This document shows positions 2,584 through 47,262 of a stretch of 53,487 nt of DNA, piece by piece. Position 1 is the first letter of the stretch, and each line of letters opens with the position of its first letter. This DNA is from a virus. The position numbers and the translations under genes are program-made. Under the pieces are notes generated by a model that did not search any database, was not told where the DNA came from, and saw only the letters and a program-made list of their open reading frames with translations. Location: positions 1-53,487 of IMG/VR virus record IMGVR_UViG_3300031028_000001, one strand, 5' to 3'.

Positions 2584-2942
2584 CAGACACGGAGCTGCGC
2601 AGTAAAATCAGCGCATTCACCAGCCGAAAGCAGCAGTGTGAGGAGAAGATCGTCACCTTGGCGCGCGCTGTAACGCCGGTATTGCACGATCACAACCTAC
2701 ACGCCTGTGCGAAACCCTTGGACGAGGCGCTTTTTGAAATGGACGCCATCGAGCAAGAGATGGTGGAACTCGTGAAAGCGGACCCGCAGCAATTCTTCAA
2801 GGTGTTGATATGTCATGACCCGGGATGCCCGTATAGCATTCAGCGAGGTGGTGCGGTTGATGGCACTTTTGACCGAGGCCAAGACGCCGCACGCCAAGGC
2901 ACTAGCGGTGGTGATCAGCGAGCGCCTGATCAACCTCTCTGA
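2580..2942 (+). CDS. Hypothetical coiled-coil protein, 3' part overlaps next gene
   Basis: The ATG at 2580 overlaps the previous stop. Residues 1-80 are helical and charged (KISAFTSRKQQCEEKIVTLA...) with coiled-coil character. From about residue 79 the frame runs inside the next gene for 128 bp and becomes low-complexity (Gly/Asp/Arg). An overlap this long is unusual here, where neighbours overlap by four bases. The native gene may therefore have ended near 2815 and lost its stop through a frameshift. Function unknown. Confidence 0.45.
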   Translation: MTDTELRSKISAFTSRKQQCEEKIVTLARAVTPVLHDHNLHACAKPLDEALFEMDAIEQEMVELVKADPQQFFKVLICHDPGCPYSIQRGGAVDGTFDRGQDAARQGTSGGDQRAPDQPL

Positions 2943-3132
2943 AACCGATGACAGCGGCGACATCCTGCCCGAGAGCGAGATAGCTGAGTGGATTCGGTTC
3001 GCGCGATTACTCAAGGTCCAGGACCAAGCGGCGGCCGCTAACGCCAGCAAGAAACGGCGTGGCACCAAATCCGGCTCAGTCATACCGTTTGGCGAGGGAG
3101 CGGGAACGCCGCGAGGCTCACAAAAGCCATGA
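2815..3132 (+). CDS. Hypothetical early phage protein with repeat-derived tail
   Basis: This is a 105-residue protein. Residues 1-75 look like a normal mostly helical domain (RIAFSEVVRLMALLTEAKTP...). The last 20 residues are encoded by family A copy A2 (3071-3127). A weak AAGGTG precedes the ATG. Its stop overlaps the next ATG (3129-3132). No domain recognised. Confidence 0.55.
   Translation: MTRDARIAFSEVVRLMALLTEAKTPHAKALAVVISERLINLSETDDSGDILPESEIAEWIRFARLLKVQDQAAAANASKKRRGTKSGSVIPFGEGAGTPRGSQKP
3071..3127 (+). repeat. Dispersed repeat family A, copy A2
   Basis: GGCTCAGTCATACCG at the start and GCGAGGCTCACAAAAG at the end match the family consensus; the centre is diverged. It forms the 3' end of the 2815-3132 gene. 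Confidence 0.7.
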
Positions 3133-3347
3133 GAACGATCTGGCTGCACGCCATCAACCGCAGGGTAACGCTGGCCTCCTACCTGGCTGCCGTGCGTCTG
3201 GCGCAAGCCAATCCTACAGTGACGTTCAAACACGGCTTCACCACCTGGTGGCCGACCACCGGAGAGGAAATCATGCGCCAGTTCCGGGAAGGGGTGACCG
3301 ACCGCATCAACCAGGCCATCCCCTATTGCAAACGAGGAATTCAGTGA
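3129..3347 (+). CDS. Conserved small phage protein (AINRRVTLA / TTWWPTTGEEI type)
   Basis: This is a 72-residue protein. The signature AINRRVTLASYLAAVRLAQA followed by FKHGFTTWWPTTGEEIMRQF is one I know from hypothetical genes in many temperate phage early operons. No function has been established to my knowledge. It starts in an ATGA overlap and ends in TGATGA, where the next start is found. Confidence 0.65.
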   Translation: MRTIWLHAINRRVTLASYLAAVRLAQANPTVTFKHGFTTWWPTTGEEIMRQFREGVTDRINQAIPYCKRGIQ

Positions 3348-3529
3348 TGAAGATTCGTAAGATCCGTTGTGAAGGCTGTGGAGTGGAATTCTACTGGTGG
3401 GAAGGACACTCGTTTGCAGAGTGTTTAAAAGCGAAAGAGTGGAGAGAGCAGCAGGAGTACTTAGATCGATTGGAACTGGATTTTGTGAGCCTCGATGTGC
3501 CACAATCGCGCGTCATACGTCATGACTGA
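3347..3529 (+). CDS. Small zinc-ribbon-like protein with repeat-derived end
   Basis: This is a 60-residue protein from ATG 3347, which shares a base with the upstream TGA; GAGGA lies upstream. CEGCG near residue 8 and a later Cys (ECLKA) suggest a partial metal site. The last 16 or so residues come from repeat copy A8, which runs on the opposite strand. Function unknown. Confidence 0.5.
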   Translation: MKIRKIRCEGCGVEFYWWEGHSFAECLKAKEWREQQEYLDRLELDFVSLDVPQSRVIRHD

Positions 3530-3549
3530 GGCGAGGGTGTCCGGTCGGG
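3481..3549 (-). repeat. Dispersed repeat family A, copy A8 (inverted)
   Basis: On the plus strand this reads TTTTGTGAGCCTCG... CATGACTGAG... GGGTGTCCGG, which is the reverse complement of the family consensus. It overlaps the 3' end of the 3347-3529 gene and the gap behind it. Confidence 0.65.
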
Positions 3550-3576
3550 GGAGTGTTTGCGTAGAGAGGGGGAACG

Positions 3577-4209
3577 ATGAAAGCTGTTCGGATCTATTCG
3601 GATCGAAAGCTCAGCCGACAACAGATCTGGGAAATGAAGCGGCTGTGGCGCGACGTTCCCCACGTGCAATGCAAGGGGCTCTGCCAGGGTGCTTGCACCA
3701 ACGTTCCACTGATGCCGGTCGAAGCGATCTACCTGATCGAAAAGCACGCCGCCAACCCGCTGCCGGCGTGGCACGGCTTCGGCTACAAGGCGACCATGAT
3801 GCCCACTCTCGGCATCAATGGCCCTTGCGAGTTCCTGCGGGAGGGACGCTGTTCGATCTACGACGACCGTCCGGCGGTCTGCCGGGAATACGGCCACAAA
3901 GTGCTCACGCTCGACTGCGGGCACGATTGCCAGCCGTCCAGGCCGTTCACCAACGAAGCGGCCAGCGCGATCATGCTGTTGATGTCCTACGTGCTGGATA
4001 TTCAGGGTGCGATGGCTGTGGTCATTCCCCGCGATAGCGAGCTAGTCTTCCGGCATCTGCAGGAATCCGTCGATAACCTGTGTGTTGATGTCGAGATGGA
4101 AGACGGCGAGGAAATCTCTGCCAGCGGAAACAGCGTGACACCCGAACCCAACTCAGTCATGCCGTGCAACGCGCGAGACGGAACGTTGCGAAGCCACAAA
4201 GGGCTATGA
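3577..4209 (+). CDS. YkgJ-like cysteine-cluster protein
   Basis: This is a 210-residue protein. Residues about 30-115 carry the pattern CKGLCQGAC ... CEFL..GRCSIYDDRPAVCREYG plus a later CGHDC, which matches the zinc- or iron-chelating CxxxCxxxC cluster of the YkgJ family. Family members are thought to bind metal; their reaction is unknown. GAGAGGGGG precedes the ATG. The last 25 residues come from repeat copy A3, so the natural C-terminus was probably about residue 185. The next gene starts in its stop (ATGA). Confidence 0.65.
   Translation: MKAVRIYSDRKLSRQQIWEMKRLWRDVPHVQCKGLCQGACTNVPLMPVEAIYLIEKHAANPLPAWHGFGYKATMMPTLGINGPCEFLREGRCSIYDDRPAVCREYGHKVLTLDCGHDCQPSRPFTNEAASAIMLLMSYVLDIQGAMAVVIPRDSELVFRHLQESVDNLCVDVEMEDGEEISASGNSVTPEPNSVMPCNARDGTLRSHKGL
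4133..4203 (+). repeat. Dispersed repeat family A, copy A3
   Basis: GCGTGACACCC is followed by CAACTCAGTCATGCCGTGC, GGAACG and GAAGCCACAAA. The whole copy is translated as the tail of the YkgJ-like protein (PNSVMPC...). Confidence 0.8.
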
Positions 4210-4433
4210 AGCTCACTGTCGTATTGGCCCGCTATCCTCCCAACACCCCAAAAGCCGGTTACCTGGCAGCCTATGCGGTATCCGAAGATGCCCGCCGCGG
4301 CCGCAATCTCCTGGCAGGGATGCACATCACCGGAGTGCCACATGCCAAGAACATGGTGAAACGCGAGCTGAACTACCTGATGCCAGGAGCGGAAATCACA
4401 TTCGAAGGTCCGGAGGGAGAAGTGGGGAAATGA
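4206..4433 (+). CDS. Hypothetical early phage protein
   Basis: This is a 75-residue protein starting at ATG 4206 in an ATGA overlap; the longer frame upstream is the repeat element. It has a mixed composition with the segment HITGVPHAKNMVKRELNYLMPG in the middle. The stop overlaps the next ATG (4430-4433). I do not recognise it. Confidence 0.55.
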   Translation: MKLTVVLARYPPNTPKAGYLAAYAVSEDARRGRNLLAGMHITGVPHAKNMVKRELNYLMPGAEITFEGPEGEVGK

Positions 4434-4696
4434 TCGACGATCGCGTTCCTGAACAACTCGAGAACCTGGTGCTCTACGCCTGGGTGGGACCGAAGGACGA
4501 CCCGCACGCCCAAGACGACCACTGGGGCATCAAGATAGGCGTGGTGCCGGCGGGCACGATTCCCCTGGTGGCGATTGATCGTACCAAAGTCGAGAAGGTG
4601 TGGCCGCAGATGAAGGGCTTGGCGAGGGGCACCGGGAAGGTGCGGTATCTCGCGCGGTTCGAGTTTGCCGGCGTGGTGCGGGTGGAGAAGCCGTGA
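4430..4696 (+). CDS. Hypothetical early phage protein
   Basis: This is an 88-residue protein, ATGA-coupled to the gene before and TGATG-coupled to the one after. The sequence has beta-rich character (LVLYAWVG..., WGIKIGVVPAG..., VRYLARFEFAGVVRV), suggesting a small beta-barrel-like fold. No family recognised. Confidence 0.55.
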   Translation: MIDDRVPEQLENLVLYAWVGPKDDPHAQDDHWGIKIGVVPAGTIPLVAIDRTKVEKVWPQMKGLARGTGKVRYLARFEFAGVVRVEKP

Positions 4697-5022
4697 TGCC
4701 AGTCGTAATCGTACAAGCGCTTTGCCCGTCACGGCATTGCATCGTGGCGTGCGCGAAAGAGGGAGAAGACCCGAAATTATTGGAATTCTTCCGCCGCATG
4801 ATCGAAGTCGCGGTTTCCCGCCACGCCATCAACCCGCATTGTGGTCTGTGCGGCGCGCCGAAGAGCACCTGGACCTACGAGGTTGGCGTCACGAAGTTTG
4901 CCACGATGGAGGAGGCGCTCCCGGAGATCCAGCGCCTGGAAGCTGAGCAGCTTGAACTGCGCCGGCAGATGTTCACCTCCGGGCGTGCGTTCGATGTGCT
5001 GCATGGGACGGGGAAACTTTGA
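4696..5022 (+). CDS. Hypothetical protein with CGLCGAP knuckle
   Basis: This is a 108-residue protein starting at ATG 4696, whose A is the last base of the preceding TGA. It has CPSRHC and ACAK near residues 10-20 and a CGLCGAPKSTW knuckle near residue 50, so a zinc site is likely. The C-terminal third is a charged helix. The protein is plausibly small and structural or regulatory; no function is recognised. Confidence 0.55.
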   Translation: MPVVIVQALCPSRHCIVACAKEGEDPKLLEFFRRMIEVAVSRHAINPHCGLCGAPKSTWTYEVGVTKFATMEEALPEIQRLEAEQLELRRQMFTSGRAFDVLHGTGKL

Positions 5023-42647: not shown

Positions 42648-42802
42648 AGAAACGGTTTCAATAACACCAGTTCGAGCGCCAGATACCGCACCTGCTCGGT
42701 GGCCGCGTTGTCCATCAGATAATCGAACTGCTCTTCGAGGACCGCGCGCGCATCGGTCCGTTCAGACGTTCGCAGTGGTCGATCGATTGCTGTTGCCGCC
42801 AT
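42608..42802 (-). CDS. Small helical protein
   Basis: This is a 64-residue frame starting inside the end of the LuxR-type gene and ending inside the start of the next gene. It bridges a gap that would otherwise be empty, in a region where genes are tightly packed. The composition (ARAVLEEQFDYLMDNAATEQVRYLALELVLLKPF) is a plausible helical protein. No family recognised. Confidence 0.45.
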   Translation of the reverse strand: MAATAIDRPLRTSERTDARAVLEEQFDYLMDNAATEQVRYLALELVLLKPFLCQSKPVDPWILD

Positions 42803-43079
42803 GTCGTAGCGCCAATTCGGTTCTGTTCGAGACGTTCAGTTTGCGGAAGATGCGGTACAGATATTCCTTGACCGTGCCTTCCGCCAGGTGCAGATCCCAG
42901 GCGATTTGCTTGTTGGATTTCGCCTGCGCTATGTGACTGACGATCTGCTGCTCACGGAATGACAGAGGACCGGTCCATGGCTTGCGGATACCAGCGGGCT
43001 TGCGGCATGCAGGGCAGGTATACTCTTTGGCTTCTGCTTGAAATGAGTTGCCGCAACGGGCACAGGTTCTATCCAACAT
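42762..43079 (-). CDS. LuxR-type HTH protein with N-terminal zinc ribbon
   Basis: This is a 105-residue protein. C6-x2-C9 and C22-x2-C25 form a zinc ribbon. Residues about 38-98 (LSFREQQIVSHIAQAKSNKQIAWDLHLAEGTVKEYLYRIFRKL) are a GerE/LuxR HTH. No receiver or ligand domain is attached. A stand-alone receiver is encoded 0.65 kb upstream on the same strand. It probably regulates phage or host transcription. Confidence 0.8.
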   Translation of the reverse strand: MLDRTCARCGNSFQAEAKEYTCPACRKPAGIRKPWTGPLSFREQQIVSHIAQAKSNKQIAWDLHLAEGTVKEYLYRIFRKLNVSNRTELALRHGGNSNRSTTANV

Positions 43080-43731: not shown

Positions 43732-44109
43732 TCAAGCGGCGCCCAGGGCCTCGCGGATGGCTGCCAGAAGTTGACCCACGTCCATAGGTTTTTCGAGAAA
43801 CGCCTTGGCGCCCGCCTGCATAGCGCGCTCTTTGTATTCGTCAGCGTCGTGCGCGGACACTACAATGATCGGGATCGCGGCGAGAGCGGGATGATCCGTC
43901 CTGAGCTTTGCCATCACAGCGAACCCGTCGCCGGCCGGCAGCCCGAGGTCGAGGATCATCAAATCCGGATGATGCTTGCGCGCCTGCGCTATACCCGAGA
44001 CGCCGTCCGCCGCGAAGAAAGTATCGTAGTGGCTGGCCCTGAGGCGCGTTCGGATGGCCTTACGAAAATCCGGGTTGTCGTCCACGATGAGGATTTTCTT
44101 GTTAGCCAA
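43732..44109 (-). CDS. Stand-alone CheY-like response regulator receiver
   Basis: This is a 125-residue protein. All receiver residues are present: Asp10-Asp11, phospho-acceptor Asp54 (LDLGLP), Ser85 (VVSAHD) and Lys107 (EKPMD). There is no output domain. It could take phosphate from a host histidine kinase and signal to a phage regulator, or rewire a host pathway. Such proteins are rare in phage genomes. It shares the strand with a LuxR-type HTH encoded downstream at 42762-43079. Confidence 0.85.
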   Translation of the reverse strand: MANKKILIVDDNPDFRKAIRTRLRASHYDTFFAADGVSGIAQARKHHPDLMILDLGLPAGDGFAVMAKLRTDHPALAAIPIIVVSAHDADEYKERAMQAGAKAFLEKPMDVGQLLAAIREALGAA

Positions 44110-44180: not shown

Positions 44181-44212
44181 TACTTTTAGGGATTTATATA
44201 CATGACTCCCGT
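44181..44212 (+). repeat. Left target duplication and terminal inverted repeat
   Basis: TACTTTTA (44181-44188) followed by the left inverted repeat (44189-44212). The inverted repeat covers the stop codon of the first passenger gene (44212-44214). Confidence 0.85.
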
Positions 44213-44340
44213 TAGATTTTCTTGGCATCGCGCAACCTCTTTCGCTTCCGGCGCTTTGCTGCCTTTGTCTTCGGCTTTGGTTTATATGCCAGCACCACGT
44301 CCGTTATCCGGTCGAGTTCGGGCGGAGTTTTCATCTTCAT
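44212..44340 (-). CDS. Passenger: 42-residue basic protein
   Basis: ATG at 44340 overlaps the stop of the DUF551 gene (ATGA). MKMKTPPELDRITDVVLAYK is followed by a Lys/Arg-rich tail (KRRKRKRLRDAKK). I know similar very small genes with TPPELD...VLAY and a basic tail from phage genomes. The stop codon lies in the transposon terminal repeat, so the gene fits the element exactly. Confidence 0.55.
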   Translation of the reverse strand: MKMKTPPELDRITDVVLAYKPKPKTKAAKRRKRKRLRDAKKI

Positions 44341-44747
44341 TTCGGCGGCTCCTGCAAGGGCATCCAGTGGGTTGGGTTAGCGTCTTTCGCAAATGCCATC
44401 CAGGTGTTGCACCAGTGCTTCTTGGTGCTGTGAAACATCGCCGTAGCGTAGGACTTCTGCCCCGGCAGTTCAAACCATCCAATCAACACATAGGTATCCT
44501 TCGGAGCGGTCGCGATTGGACGCCATTGGGTCTGATCCGCAAGCTCCAGGGCTTTATCGCGCCAGCTATCGGATTGCCGCTTGTAGCGGTCGCGCATAGT
44601 GGACTCTTCTTTGAACTGAACAGCCAAATCCTCAAACATGCGCCAGCAGTCGTAAGCCACGGCGTTGCGATTCTTGCCTGTGGGATCGGCCCTATCTTCG
44701 CGGACGCGGGACAGCAGGGCGTCGAGTTCGGTATGAATGACGGTCAT
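44337..44747 (-). CDS. Passenger: DUF551 protein
   Basis: This is a 136-residue protein from ATG 44747, with GGAGTGG upstream. The C-terminal half (QWRPIATAPKDTYVLIGWFE ... PTHWMPLQEPPK) is the DUF551 signature, common in phage accessory genes with unknown function. The N-terminal half is helical and specific to this protein. It is coupled with neighbours on both sides. Confidence 0.7.
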   Translation of the reverse strand: MTVIHTELDALLSRVREDRADPTGKNRNAVAYDCWRMFEDLAVQFKEESTMRDRYKRQSDSWRDKALELADQTQWRPIATAPKDTYVLIGWFELPGQKSYATAMFHSTKKHWCNTWMAFAKDANPTHWMPLQEPPK

Positions 44748-45049
44748 TTCCACTCCGATCTAATCGCTTCATCGACAGCCGCGCGGAGCGAGCGCCCAAA
44801 GAAGCGCTTCTGTTTAACGCGTACCTCGACTTGATACTTATGCCCATCGAAGCCTATCCCGAACTGGCCGTATTTGACCGATTCCAACCAATTGATTCTT
44901 TCGGCGTCTGTAATCAGCCGTTCCGCGTCGATCTTTGCGGAGGCCCGGTCGCGCACGGCTTGCGAGGGAAGCGGCGGCCCATCATCCAAGCCGTCCCGGA
45001 ACGGCGTACCATCCGGCCTCAAATTGCTCCAATCCGATTTAGACGGCAT
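44744..45049 (-). CDS. Passenger: hypothetical protein
   Basis: This is a 101-residue protein, ATGA-coupled to DUF551. Residues 48-100 (DAERINWLESVKYGQFGIGFDG...FFGRSLRAAVDEAI) resemble short phage proteins that often accompany DUF551-type genes. The N-terminus is Asp/Pro-rich. Function unknown. Confidence 0.55.
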   Translation of the reverse strand: MPSKSDWSNLRPDGTPFRDGLDDGPPLPSQAVRDRASAKIDAERLITDAERINWLESVKYGQFGIGFDGHKYQVEVRVKQKRFFGRSLRAAVDEAIRSEWK

Positions 45050-45365
45050 GGGATTTCTCCAGCAGTTTGCAGAGCGCGATCTGGATACGCTTTGGAAATT
45101 TTACGGTTTTCGTGTCGAAAGCCCTGGTTGCCATTCCACCCATGGAATTCAGCGGAATCCATAGGCCGCGCTCCCCGTAGCCGTAGTATGGTCCGTAGTG
45201 CCAACGCGCCAGTTGGCGGCGATCCACGTTCGGCGGAATCTTCCAGCCGGATCGCTTCAGAATGGGATTCACCAGCTTGGCGTCTAGTTGCCAAGTATGC
45301 AGGCGCTTCAGGTGCTTTAGTATTGCCGCGTGGTGCGGGTCACGTGGGTCCAGTGGTACGCTCAT
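45039..45365 (-). CDS. Passenger: hypothetical protein
   Basis: This is a 108-residue protein starting in an ATGA overlap with the transposase stop (45362-45365) and overlapping the next gene by 11 bp. Basic, rich in Trp/Tyr/His (RWHYGPYYGYGERGLW). The sequence does not resemble transposition accessory proteins. Function unknown. Confidence 0.5.
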   Translation of the reverse strand: MSVPLDPRDPHHAAILKHLKRLHTWQLDAKLVNPILKRSGWKIPPNVDRRQLARWHYGPYYGYGERGLWIPLNSMGGMATRAFDTKTVKFPKRIQIALCKLLEKSHAV

Positions 45366-46294
45366 GCGATCAACCTCGCGTAGGTCAGCCGCTTGCCGGA
45401 AACTCCGTCCACGAAGGAATCCAGACGCTCAAGCGTGTGGCGTTCTACGTTCCCTTCGTTCAGCCGGAAAGTGAACTCGTCAACGTACCGGAACAGATGC
45501 TTCTTGCTGGCGTGGTGGTAAACCCCATGCAGCCCGCGCTTGAGCACAGCCCAGACGCTCTCTATGGAGTTGGTGGACGCCGCGCCCCTGGCATACTCAC
45601 CGGCGCTGTGGTTGACCGTCTCGTGGCGGTAGAACAGCCCATCCAGGTCGCTGAATACCATGTGATCGTCGGTGTAGAGTTGCGATCCGGCTTCGACGTT
45701 GGCGTGGATCTGACCGTGGATGCCGTCCAGCGTGCGAATCTCAACTACCTTGGCGAACGTCCGGCCACCCTTGCCGCGCTCCCGCATCCCAAGGACGGCG
45801 GTTTTCCCGACAGGGCCGCGCCCCATGTTCAGCTTCTTGCCCTTGTGCTTGTTCCCTTCCAGGCCGCCGACGAAGCACTCGTCGATCTCCACCACGCCCT
45901 TGAGTTTCTCCGGGTCGGTCGAACCGCCGCACGCTTCCCTGAGGCGTCCCAGGATGAACCACGCGGTTTTCTGCGTAACGCCTATCTCTTTGGCAAGCTG
46001 CATGGAGGAAATCCCTTTGCGGGCCGTGACCAGCAAGTACATGGCGTAAACCCACTTGTTCAATGGCACCTTGGAGCGCTCGAAAATGGTTCCCGTCCTG
46101 ACCGTGAAATCGAAGTCTCCGCAGGCGTTGCACCGATAGAAACCGTCCTTCCGGGTCGTGAGCCGATCCGACGTTTTACACTCCGGGCAAACCGGGCCAT
46201 TGGGCCACAATCGCCCTTCCAGGTAGGTCCGCGCCGTCTCCACGTCCGGGAACATCTCGAAGAGCTTGAATGTGCTGATAGTGGAGCGGGACAT
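45362..46294 (-). CDS. IS1595-family transposase
   Basis: This is a 310-residue protein from ATG 46294. The N-terminal zinc ribbon has C36, C39, C55 and C58. The DDE core has Asp138 (VVEIDECFVGG), Asp209/210 (LYTDDH) and Glu245 (STNSIESVWAVLKRG), so catalysis looks intact. Inverted repeats and an 8-bp duplication surround it. Unusually, it sits in the middle of an operon: a gene ends 2 bp upstream and the next gene overlaps its stop, so it is co-translated with cargo. Confidence 0.9.
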   Translation of the reverse strand: MSRSTISTFKLFEMFPDVETARTYLEGRLWPNGPVCPECKTSDRLTTRKDGFYRCNACGDFDFTVRTGTIFERSKVPLNKWVYAMYLLVTARKGISSMQLAKEIGVTQKTAWFILGRLREACGGSTDPEKLKGVVEIDECFVGGLEGNKHKGKKLNMGRGPVGKTAVLGMRERGKGGRTFAKVVEIRTLDGIHGQIHANVEAGSQLYTDDHMVFSDLDGLFYRHETVNHSAGEYARGAASTNSIESVWAVLKRGLHGVYHHASKKHLFRYVDEFTFRLNEGNVERHTLERLDSFVDGVSGKRLTYARLIA

Positions 46295-46295
46295 T

Positions 46296-46529
46296 TCAGC
46301 AGCCCTCCACTTTGCGGTTCCAGGACCACTGCTCCACCGATCCCAACTGCTCCCAGGTCTTTCGGGCTCCGCCGTCGTGGTAGGTTGGCCGTTTGCGGAC
46401 ATCGGCCTCATAATCGGCCTTGCCACGTGCGGGGAGAGCCGAATTGTAGCGGTCAATCTGCTCCTGAACGGAACCGAGTCCCTTTACTTTCGCTTCCGCC
46501 GTGGTCAGGTACATTTTGTTGTTTTCCAT
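46296..46529 (-). CDS. Passenger: small conserved phage-type protein
   Basis: This is a 77-residue protein. RPTYHDGGARKTWEQLGSVEQWSW is a motif known from small hypothetical genes in phages. It is the first gene of the transposon operon, so it would be transcribed before the transposase. Whether it assists transposition is unknown. Confidence 0.6.
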   Translation of the reverse strand: MENNKMYLTTAEAKVKGLGSVQEQIDRYNSALPARGKADYEADVRKRPTYHDGGARKTWEQLGSVEQWSWNRKVEGC

Positions 46530-46553
46530 GTCCTAATGATACATGGTTCCCGT

Positions 46554-46585
46554 ACGGGAGTCAAGTATATAATTCCCTACTTTTA
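46554..46585 (-). repeat. Right terminal inverted repeat and target duplication
   Basis: The right inverted repeat (46554-46577) is followed by TACTTTTA (46578-46585), identical to the left duplication. The last three bases of the duplication form the stop codon of the 46583-46936 gene. Confidence 0.85.
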
Positions 46586-46936
46586 GGCAGCCGGAGTGTT
46601 AGCTGTGACAGCGGCCGCCAGCGAGGTGGCGGACGTGTTGAGGGAAGCTGCCAGCGCGGCGATAGCGGCCGGATCGTTGGCGTTCGCCACCAGTTGCGCC
46701 GCAAGGCCCTGAATCAGGGTGATGGCGCTCTGTTCGACGGTAGTGTTCTGGGTAACTTGCGCGGTAAGTGCTGCTAGGTCCATGATTTCCTCTTTTTGGT
46801 TGGCTAGAATCTGGTCCAACTTTGAATCCACCGCATCTAGCCGTGCGGCGAGTTGGGCGTACAACTGGAGAGCCCAGTCCATCTTGGGCGGAAAGCCTGG
46901 TGAAGCGGGACTCGGCGGCGTTGGTTCGGTGGACAC
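46583..46936 (-). CDS. Hypothetical phage protein with strong internal start
   Basis: This is a 117-residue protein from GTG 46936, preceded by GGGGATAAAC. Residues 52-117 (MDLAALTAQVTQNTTVEQSAITLIQGLAAQL...) match a known type of Ala/Thr-rich small phage protein that can stand alone. ATG 46783 is preceded by AGAGGAAATC, so a 66-residue form is likely made as well. The N-terminal part is Pro-rich. The transposon target site begins at the stop codon. Confidence 0.6.
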   Translation of the reverse strand: MSTEPTPPSPASPGFPPKMDWALQLYAQLAARLDAVDSKLDQILANQKEEIMDLAALTAQVTQNTTVEQSAITLIQGLAAQLVANANDPAAIAALAASLNTSATSLAAAVTANTPAA

Positions 46937-46965
46937 GTTTATCCCCTTTTGTAGAGGTAATGCGG

Positions 46966-47262
46966 TCACGATGCTTTTCTCAGGCGGCGCAGGGTCCAGC
47001 ACCGCGGCGGATTCTGATCGGTTTCGTGATCGTGCGAATAGGCGCGCGGGTTGCCCTTGCGATCGGGAAGCGCTGAGTCGTCGCCGCACTCCCGAACCTG
47101 CAGCTCGACGATCATCTTGTCCTTACGGCGCCGGATGACTTTGACGTTGGGCGCCTGGATCAAACACAACAGGCGTTCGCGATTGGCCCATTCATAGCAG
47201 CGAGGACCGCGGCCAGACATGACTGGCACCGGGAACGCCTGATTGTTTTGGATTTGCGACAA
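46966..47262 (-). CDS. Hypothetical basic protein
   Basis: This is a 98-residue protein with a TTG start at 47262 (an ATG at residue 15 is an alternative). Arg/Lys-rich with NVKVIRRRKDKMIVELQVRE in the middle and a basic C-terminus. Possibly nucleic-acid binding; family unknown. Confidence 0.5.
   Translation of the reverse strand: MSQIQNNQAFPVPVMSGRGPRCYEWANRERLLCLIQAPNVKVIRRRKDKMIVELQVRECGDDSALPDRKGNPRAYSHDHETDQNPPRCWTLRRLRKAS

Follow-up and report, generated by a model that had tools for sequence, protein, structure and literature searches.

The locus studied here raises the question of whether a transposon can act as a vehicle for small accessory genes among phages. Such genes, including anti-restriction genes, jump between unrelated phages, and these jumps are mostly ascribed to illegitimate or homologous recombination. 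The window (the whole stretch analysed, 53,487 bp) is a complete IMG/VR virus record with the terminase, portal, protease and capsid genes of a tailed phage, and the original prediction placed in it a complete IS1595 transposon with an operon of phage accessory genes. Transposable elements are regarded as scarce in phages (Leclercq and Cordaux 2011, as cited in PMC8136500 and PMC9600943).

The element in the window and its class

The element belongs to the IS1595 family, spans 2389 bp (44189-46577) and is present in a single copy in the contig. Its features are as follows.

44181-44188, no strand: target duplication, left copy, 8 bp, TACTTTTA
44189-44212, plus strand: left (transposase-distal) terminal inverted repeat, GGGATTTATATACATGACTCCCGT
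44212-44340, minus strand: 42-aa basic protein (PELDRITDVVLAYKPKPKTKAAKRRKRKRLR) without a match in Pfam or NCBIfam; a conserved companion of this transposase clade
44337-44753, minus strand: passenger, 138 aa, C-terminal DUF551 (PF04448); N-terminal part with a 70 % identical counterpart in an unrelated phage
44744-45049, minus strand: passenger, 101 aa; a weak PHROG match alone (phrog_11293, 5e-4)
45039-45365, minus strand: passenger, 108 aa; 65 % identical element-free homolog in an unrelated phage (L509)
45362-46294, minus strand: IS1595-family DDE transposase with N-terminal zinc ribbon; profile matches, conserved D138, D209, E245 and K252
46296-46529, minus strand: passenger, RPTYHDG protein of 77 aa, encoded at the head of the operon; over 30 aa it matches contig L255 at 93 %
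46536-46541, minus strand: -10 box TATCAT, 17 bp from the -35 box
46554-46577, minus strand: right (transposase-proximal) terminal inverted repeat, GGGAATTATATACTTGACTCCCGT, including the -35 box
46559-46564: -35 box TTGACT, inside the transposase-proximal terminal inverted repeat
46578-46585, no strand: target duplication, right copy, TACTTTTA, overlapping the TAA stop of the upstream gene 46583-47089

The predicted 24-bp inverted ends are present and identical at 22 of 24 positions, and the 8-bp target duplication is perfect. The insertion is intergenic, with the stop of gene 46583-47089 on one side and a response-regulator gene on the other. The latter encodes a stand-alone receiver protein (43732-44109, PF00072, 3e-29), and a LuxR-type helix-turn-helix protein was recognised by eye beside the insertion, at 42762-43079. 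The six minus-strand ORFs abut or overlap by 4-11 bp, in the order RPTYHDG protein, transposase, two proteins without assignment, DUF551 protein and 42-aa basic protein, so the coupled operon with an intact transposase was read correctly. The DUF551 passenger was also recovered by profile search (PF04448, 2e-6), while the remaining passengers received no confident family assignment in the profile searches. Long ORFs starting from an ATG inside the transposase-distal end (e.g. 44202-44834, plus strand) were rejected as genes because they run antisense to the conserved basic protein gene.

The transposase matched PF12762 (DDE_Tnp_IS1595, E 1.7e-40) and the NCBIfam IS1595 model NF033547 (4.6e-55), and its N-terminal zinc ribbon matched PF12760 (7e-10). 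The four catalytic residues are conserved across 22 aligned relatives (alignment A1). Among the matches listed, no named plasmid IS1595 transposase exceeds 45 % identity to it, and the best identity in the phage record collection was 39 %. In the cultured phages searched we found no close transposase, and of four passengers tested just the DUF551 protein gave distant matches.

In the IS1595 family an N-terminal zinc ribbon is present in all groups but IS1016, and members usually consist of a single transposase gene and generate an 8-bp target duplication (PMC8101967). The named subgroups of the family are ISPna2, ISSod11, ISNwi1, ISH4, IS1016, IS1595 and ISNha5. The element in the window has the catalytic domain, the zinc ribbon and the duplication of this family. 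It holds five further genes between its ends and is therefore filed not under plain insertion sequences but under tIS, the IS1595 members that carry passenger genes (PMC5704250). It combines transposase and passengers between one pair of ends with a target duplication; transposition as a unit is seen in the comparison of relatives, at unrelated sites and at empty sites, and not for the window copy. We regard the element, with a probability of roughly 0.8, as an IS1595-family 'transporter' transposon (tIS) in a tailed phage, a unit that would shuttle small phage genes.

A family of elements in phage and bacterial contigs

Relatives of the transposase were found in 37 IMG/VR contigs, with best segments 54-81 % identical. 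A search for the end motif returned at least 119 phage-contig stretches, and sub-patterns added more. Among the loci then collected, a perfect 8-bp duplication flanked 182 of 311 end pairs and appeared in 0 of 622 offset control comparisons, and the structure of the elements is therefore not due to chance. We thus obtained 160 distinct elements with perfect 8-bp duplications, which shows that the same end, proposed as a search query in the original prediction, is widespread in uncultivated phage contigs. The transposase-bearing elements (n = 117, median 1822 bp) come from phage contigs (65) and genome contigs (52). The 43 transposase-less elements (median 516 bp, range 171-1301) are all in phage contigs; their absence from genome loci is partly by construction, as those loci were fetched by transposase. 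The end consensus of about 22 bp is GGGAATTATATA(C/G)(T/A)TGACTCCC and the duplicated target is 82 % A+T. Using a simple gene caller, 36 % of the insertion sites were intergenic, compared with 11.5 % of random and 19 % of AT-matched positions.

Two relatives have a particular structure. In L013 (1727-6070) a complete element (2624-4784, with its own duplication ATCGAAAG) is nested within another complete element. The stretch 243-1113 of L255 is a decayed relative of the window element; its transposase is cut short, and 30 aa encoded there are 93 % identical to the RPTYHDG protein.

The transposase-proximal ends share TTGACT at end positions 14-19, followed by a -10-like box at exactly 17 bp. 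In 79 proximal ends the mean -10 match was 3.46 of 6 at this spacing and at most 2.35 at others, and the signal is absent from distal ends and from cassettes, as we call the transposase-less elements (see below). In the window, the first start codon of the operon lies 6 nt beyond the -10 box. With the -35 box within the end and the -10 box and start codon beyond it, expression would therefore begin inside the end itself. A wider operator model with an inverted third half-site by the promoter (22 of 117 proximal ends, 2.3 expected) was considered but not pressed.

The 42-aa basic protein (the TPPELD...VLAY protein) had been counted among the passengers, but it turned out to be a conserved partner gene of the transposase clade and part of the transposon core. 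Proteins of this kind (40-55 aa, motif LDxIxDxVLxYRPKPK) are encoded in 77 of the 117 elements with a transposase, in every case downstream of it and on its strand, and in 0 of 160 control flanks. The family has no match in Pfam or NCBIfam, and we infer that it is a transposition accessory. In L175 and L196 the basic protein is fused to methylases.

Regarding mobility, whole elements 94-99.9 % identical to each other lie in unrelated surroundings and have duplications of different sequence (L018/L019/L020/L036, L026/L027 and L043/L301). Two clean empty sites were recovered: the flanks of the L136 element align with L249 straight through a single ATTTAATA, and the target of the L258 element is in single copy in L118. 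Where the flanks of L316 appeared joined in other loci, the match proved to be a TnpB gene fragment beside the L316 element and not an empty site. For the window insertion itself, the empty site expected beside gene 46583-47089 was not found in the search with the exact 21-base junction pattern (TGCCTAAAAGTAGGCA). There were 76 contigs with relatives of the flanking gene and no element, but their wider neighbourhood differs, and the terminase relatives (80 loci) comprised fragments of the same virus and remote relatives; neither set gave an informative empty site. One fragment of the window virus, L421, terminates 2 bp inside the element, which is compatible with an assembly break at a mobile unit, although this is suggestive and a hint only.

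The clade is not confined to phages. In bacterial genomes, 522 stretches encode transposase relatives of 51-72 % identity (one partial match reached 75 %); some copies are clearly chromosomal, and the flanks of genome copies are mostly without phage families. In the transposase tree, phage and genome copies are intermingled; their labels change 19 times, and 12 of these changes are forced by supported branches. Some of these changes arise because phage contigs have been binned into MAGs. The GTDB MAG contig QZKR01000020.1 (L178) and the IMG/VR contig L018 are both 50118 bp long and hold the same element; they are apparently a single phage contig that was assigned to a bacterial bin, which calls for caution in host inference. 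From the bacterial relatives and the mixed tree we conclude that the elements pass between phages and chromosomes.

The same observations, namely the bacterial copies with their chromosomal neighbourhoods and the 19 label changes, would be expected of an ordinary bacterial IS1595 transposon that lands in phages occasionally, the cargo being incidental and the phage a passive stop-over. Of 385 genomes of one class, however, just one contained the exact end motif, and of 396 genomes of a phylum none did, against the at least 119 phage-contig stretches, and the cargo is of phage type. The transposase-less elements were likewise seen in phage contigs only; genome loci had been selected by their transposase, but in eight host genomes searched by the end pattern the matching ones hold a single element and no extra one. 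We consider this explanation unlikely, and phages appear to be the main carriers of the family. The proposed role as a vehicle for small modules between phages is thus supported at the level of the family by near-identical elements at unrelated sites, clean empty sites, exchange of cargo and single-gene cassettes in phage contigs, whereas exclusivity to phages did not hold and no empty site was found for the window copy.

Passengers and transposase-less cassettes

The passengers of the window element were expected to be phage accessory genes, and this is now substantiated for two of them. Two neighbouring genes of contig IMGVR_3300020045_006659 (L509), in the order seen in the window, code for proteins related to the 108-aa passenger (65 % over 86 aa) and to the N-terminal portion of the DUF551 protein (70 % over 66 aa). 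The record has portal and capsid genes and no match to the window terminase; no element end was seen in the 6.2 kb read around the two genes and no transposase in the record. These homologs are free of the element; the passengers therefore occur in another phage lineage as resident genes. The arrangement that the original prediction named as refuting it, the same passengers at the same locus without the element, was not encountered, since none of the genes adjoining the element in the window turned up next to the homologs. The window passengers are not among the known anti-restriction genes.

In several pairs (L003/L009, L018/L171, L207/L313) the transposase end and the distal end are common and the middle is different, so cargo has been exchanged on a fixed core. 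The cargo of the autonomous elements includes methylases, PAPS reductases, HNH nucleases and some restriction genes. The transposase-less elements hold one to three small genes, and their subterminal sequences are unrelated to those of the autonomous ones; they are therefore cassettes and not deletion derivatives. Pfam searches on 45 of their ORFs identified seven N6/N4 methylases, two Mom proteins, Dam, MT-A70 and one C5 methylase. DNA-modification genes occur in about 12 of the 43 cassettes and in roughly 4 of 110 large flank ORFs among the matches listed (p about 5e-5, sizes not matched). Among the large ORFs on either side of the cassettes, terminase, portal, capsid and replication helicase families are abundant.

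The short elements might instead be dead, MITE-like remnants with chance ORFs. The shortest (171-344 bp) have tiny ORFs alone, some overlapping on both strands, as such remnants would. On the other hand, many short elements contain full-length domains that nearly fill them (N6_N4_Mtase 2.8e-41, Mom 2.3e-18, Dam 1.9e-17), and the unrelated subterminal sequences do not fit simple internal deletions, which makes this explanation very improbable. A second alternative sees the cargo as selfish, with methylases and restriction genes acting as addiction or self-protection modules that serve the transposon and not the phage. Some autonomous elements do have restriction genes beside methylases (SfiI, GmrSD and EcoRI methylase families), but most methylase cassettes are solitary, 0.5-1.3 kb long and without room for a nuclease, and Mom and Dam are typical phage anti-restriction genes. 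We find it somewhat less likely even than the occasional bacterial transposon.

In several cassettes the start codon of the cargo gene is an ATG inside the end, as for the methylase in L083, the C5 methylase in L074 and Mom in L053. In the group formed by these three and L274, L283, L286, L338 and L328, some cargo ORFs begin in this way (with GTG in L286) and others stop at the TAA in the opposite repeat. TnpB genes, starting just inside one end, were also found alone between IS1595-type ends in L292 (3094-4284; the same in L267, L290, L310, L317 and L337), L318/L333 and L269. The L292 copy of this RNA-guided endonuclease matched NF040570 (E 2e-69). These loci are without perfect target duplications, and it is possible that TnpB was captured as cargo by the family.

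A proposed mechanism and known systems

Judged from sequence, the transposase, the 22-bp recognition ends and the 8-bp AT-rich target duplication define a mobile unit, the promoter (-35 inside the proximal end, -10 17 bp on) is placed to read the whole operon, and the element otherwise consists, apart from the basic protein gene, of exchangeable cargo of small phage-type genes. The transposase would recognise the ends, and the unit would be inserted, preferentially between genes, into another replicon in that cell, for instance a co-infecting phage or a prophage. Cassettes with the same ends may be mobilised in trans as well; in L321 autonomous and transposase-less elements are together in one contig, a co-occurrence that makes this possible, no more. 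Small accessory and anti-restriction genes could thus be passed among phage genomes. For the more specific proposal of a phage-centred cassette exchange we see about an even chance. The transposase, perhaps with the basic micro-protein, would come from autonomous IS1595-type elements and act in trans on a floating pool of cassettes, each with a single gene and the same 22-bp ends. These would move accessory and anti-restriction genes among unrelated phages, as a transposon counterpart to integron cassettes.

Phage morons are small accessory genes inserted between phage genes. The present family differs from them in having terminal repeats, a target duplication and a transposase that would account for the arrival of such genes. 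Phage-resident transposons and single-gene cassettes would therefore offer a concrete, testable mechanism for moron exchange. The 22-bp ends would be recognisable tags by which recent acquisitions could be found, among them genes of unknown function that are candidates for counter-defence, and DNA-modification cargo can hide viral DNA from bacterial defences.

Our full-text literature search (preprints and subscription papers were outside its scope) gave nothing on a phage transposon with anti-restriction cargo, nor on an IS1595 clade that resides in phages and combines exchangeable phage cargo with single-gene cassettes and a conserved basic partner protein. IS1595 elements with passengers (tIS) and transposase-less cassettes (mobile insertion cassettes, MICs) are already known in bacteria (PMC5704250, PMC5444012); new here is a phage-resident IS1595 set carrying phage and anti-restriction genes. 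With the IS1595 insertion sequences the window element shares the DDE_Tnp_IS1595 domain, the N-terminal zinc ribbon and the 8-bp target duplication (PMC8101967), but it has passengers, an additional conserved basic protein gene and a phage residence. With tISCpe8 and MTnSag1/tISSag10 it shares an IS1595 transposase and passengers between ends of about 25 bp; however, the known tIS are mobilised by conjugation, tISCpe8 with lincomycin resistance (PMC5704250), whereas the present family is phage-resident with phage-type and DNA-modification cargo. The MICs, such as the qnrS2 cassette, are transposase-less units with IS-like ends, a target duplication and a gene inside, a description that fits 43 members of the family and not the window element. 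They are known with plasmid or chromosomal resistance cargo (PMC5444012), while here dozens of cassettes with single phage genes reside in phage genomes and have their ends in common with autonomous relatives.
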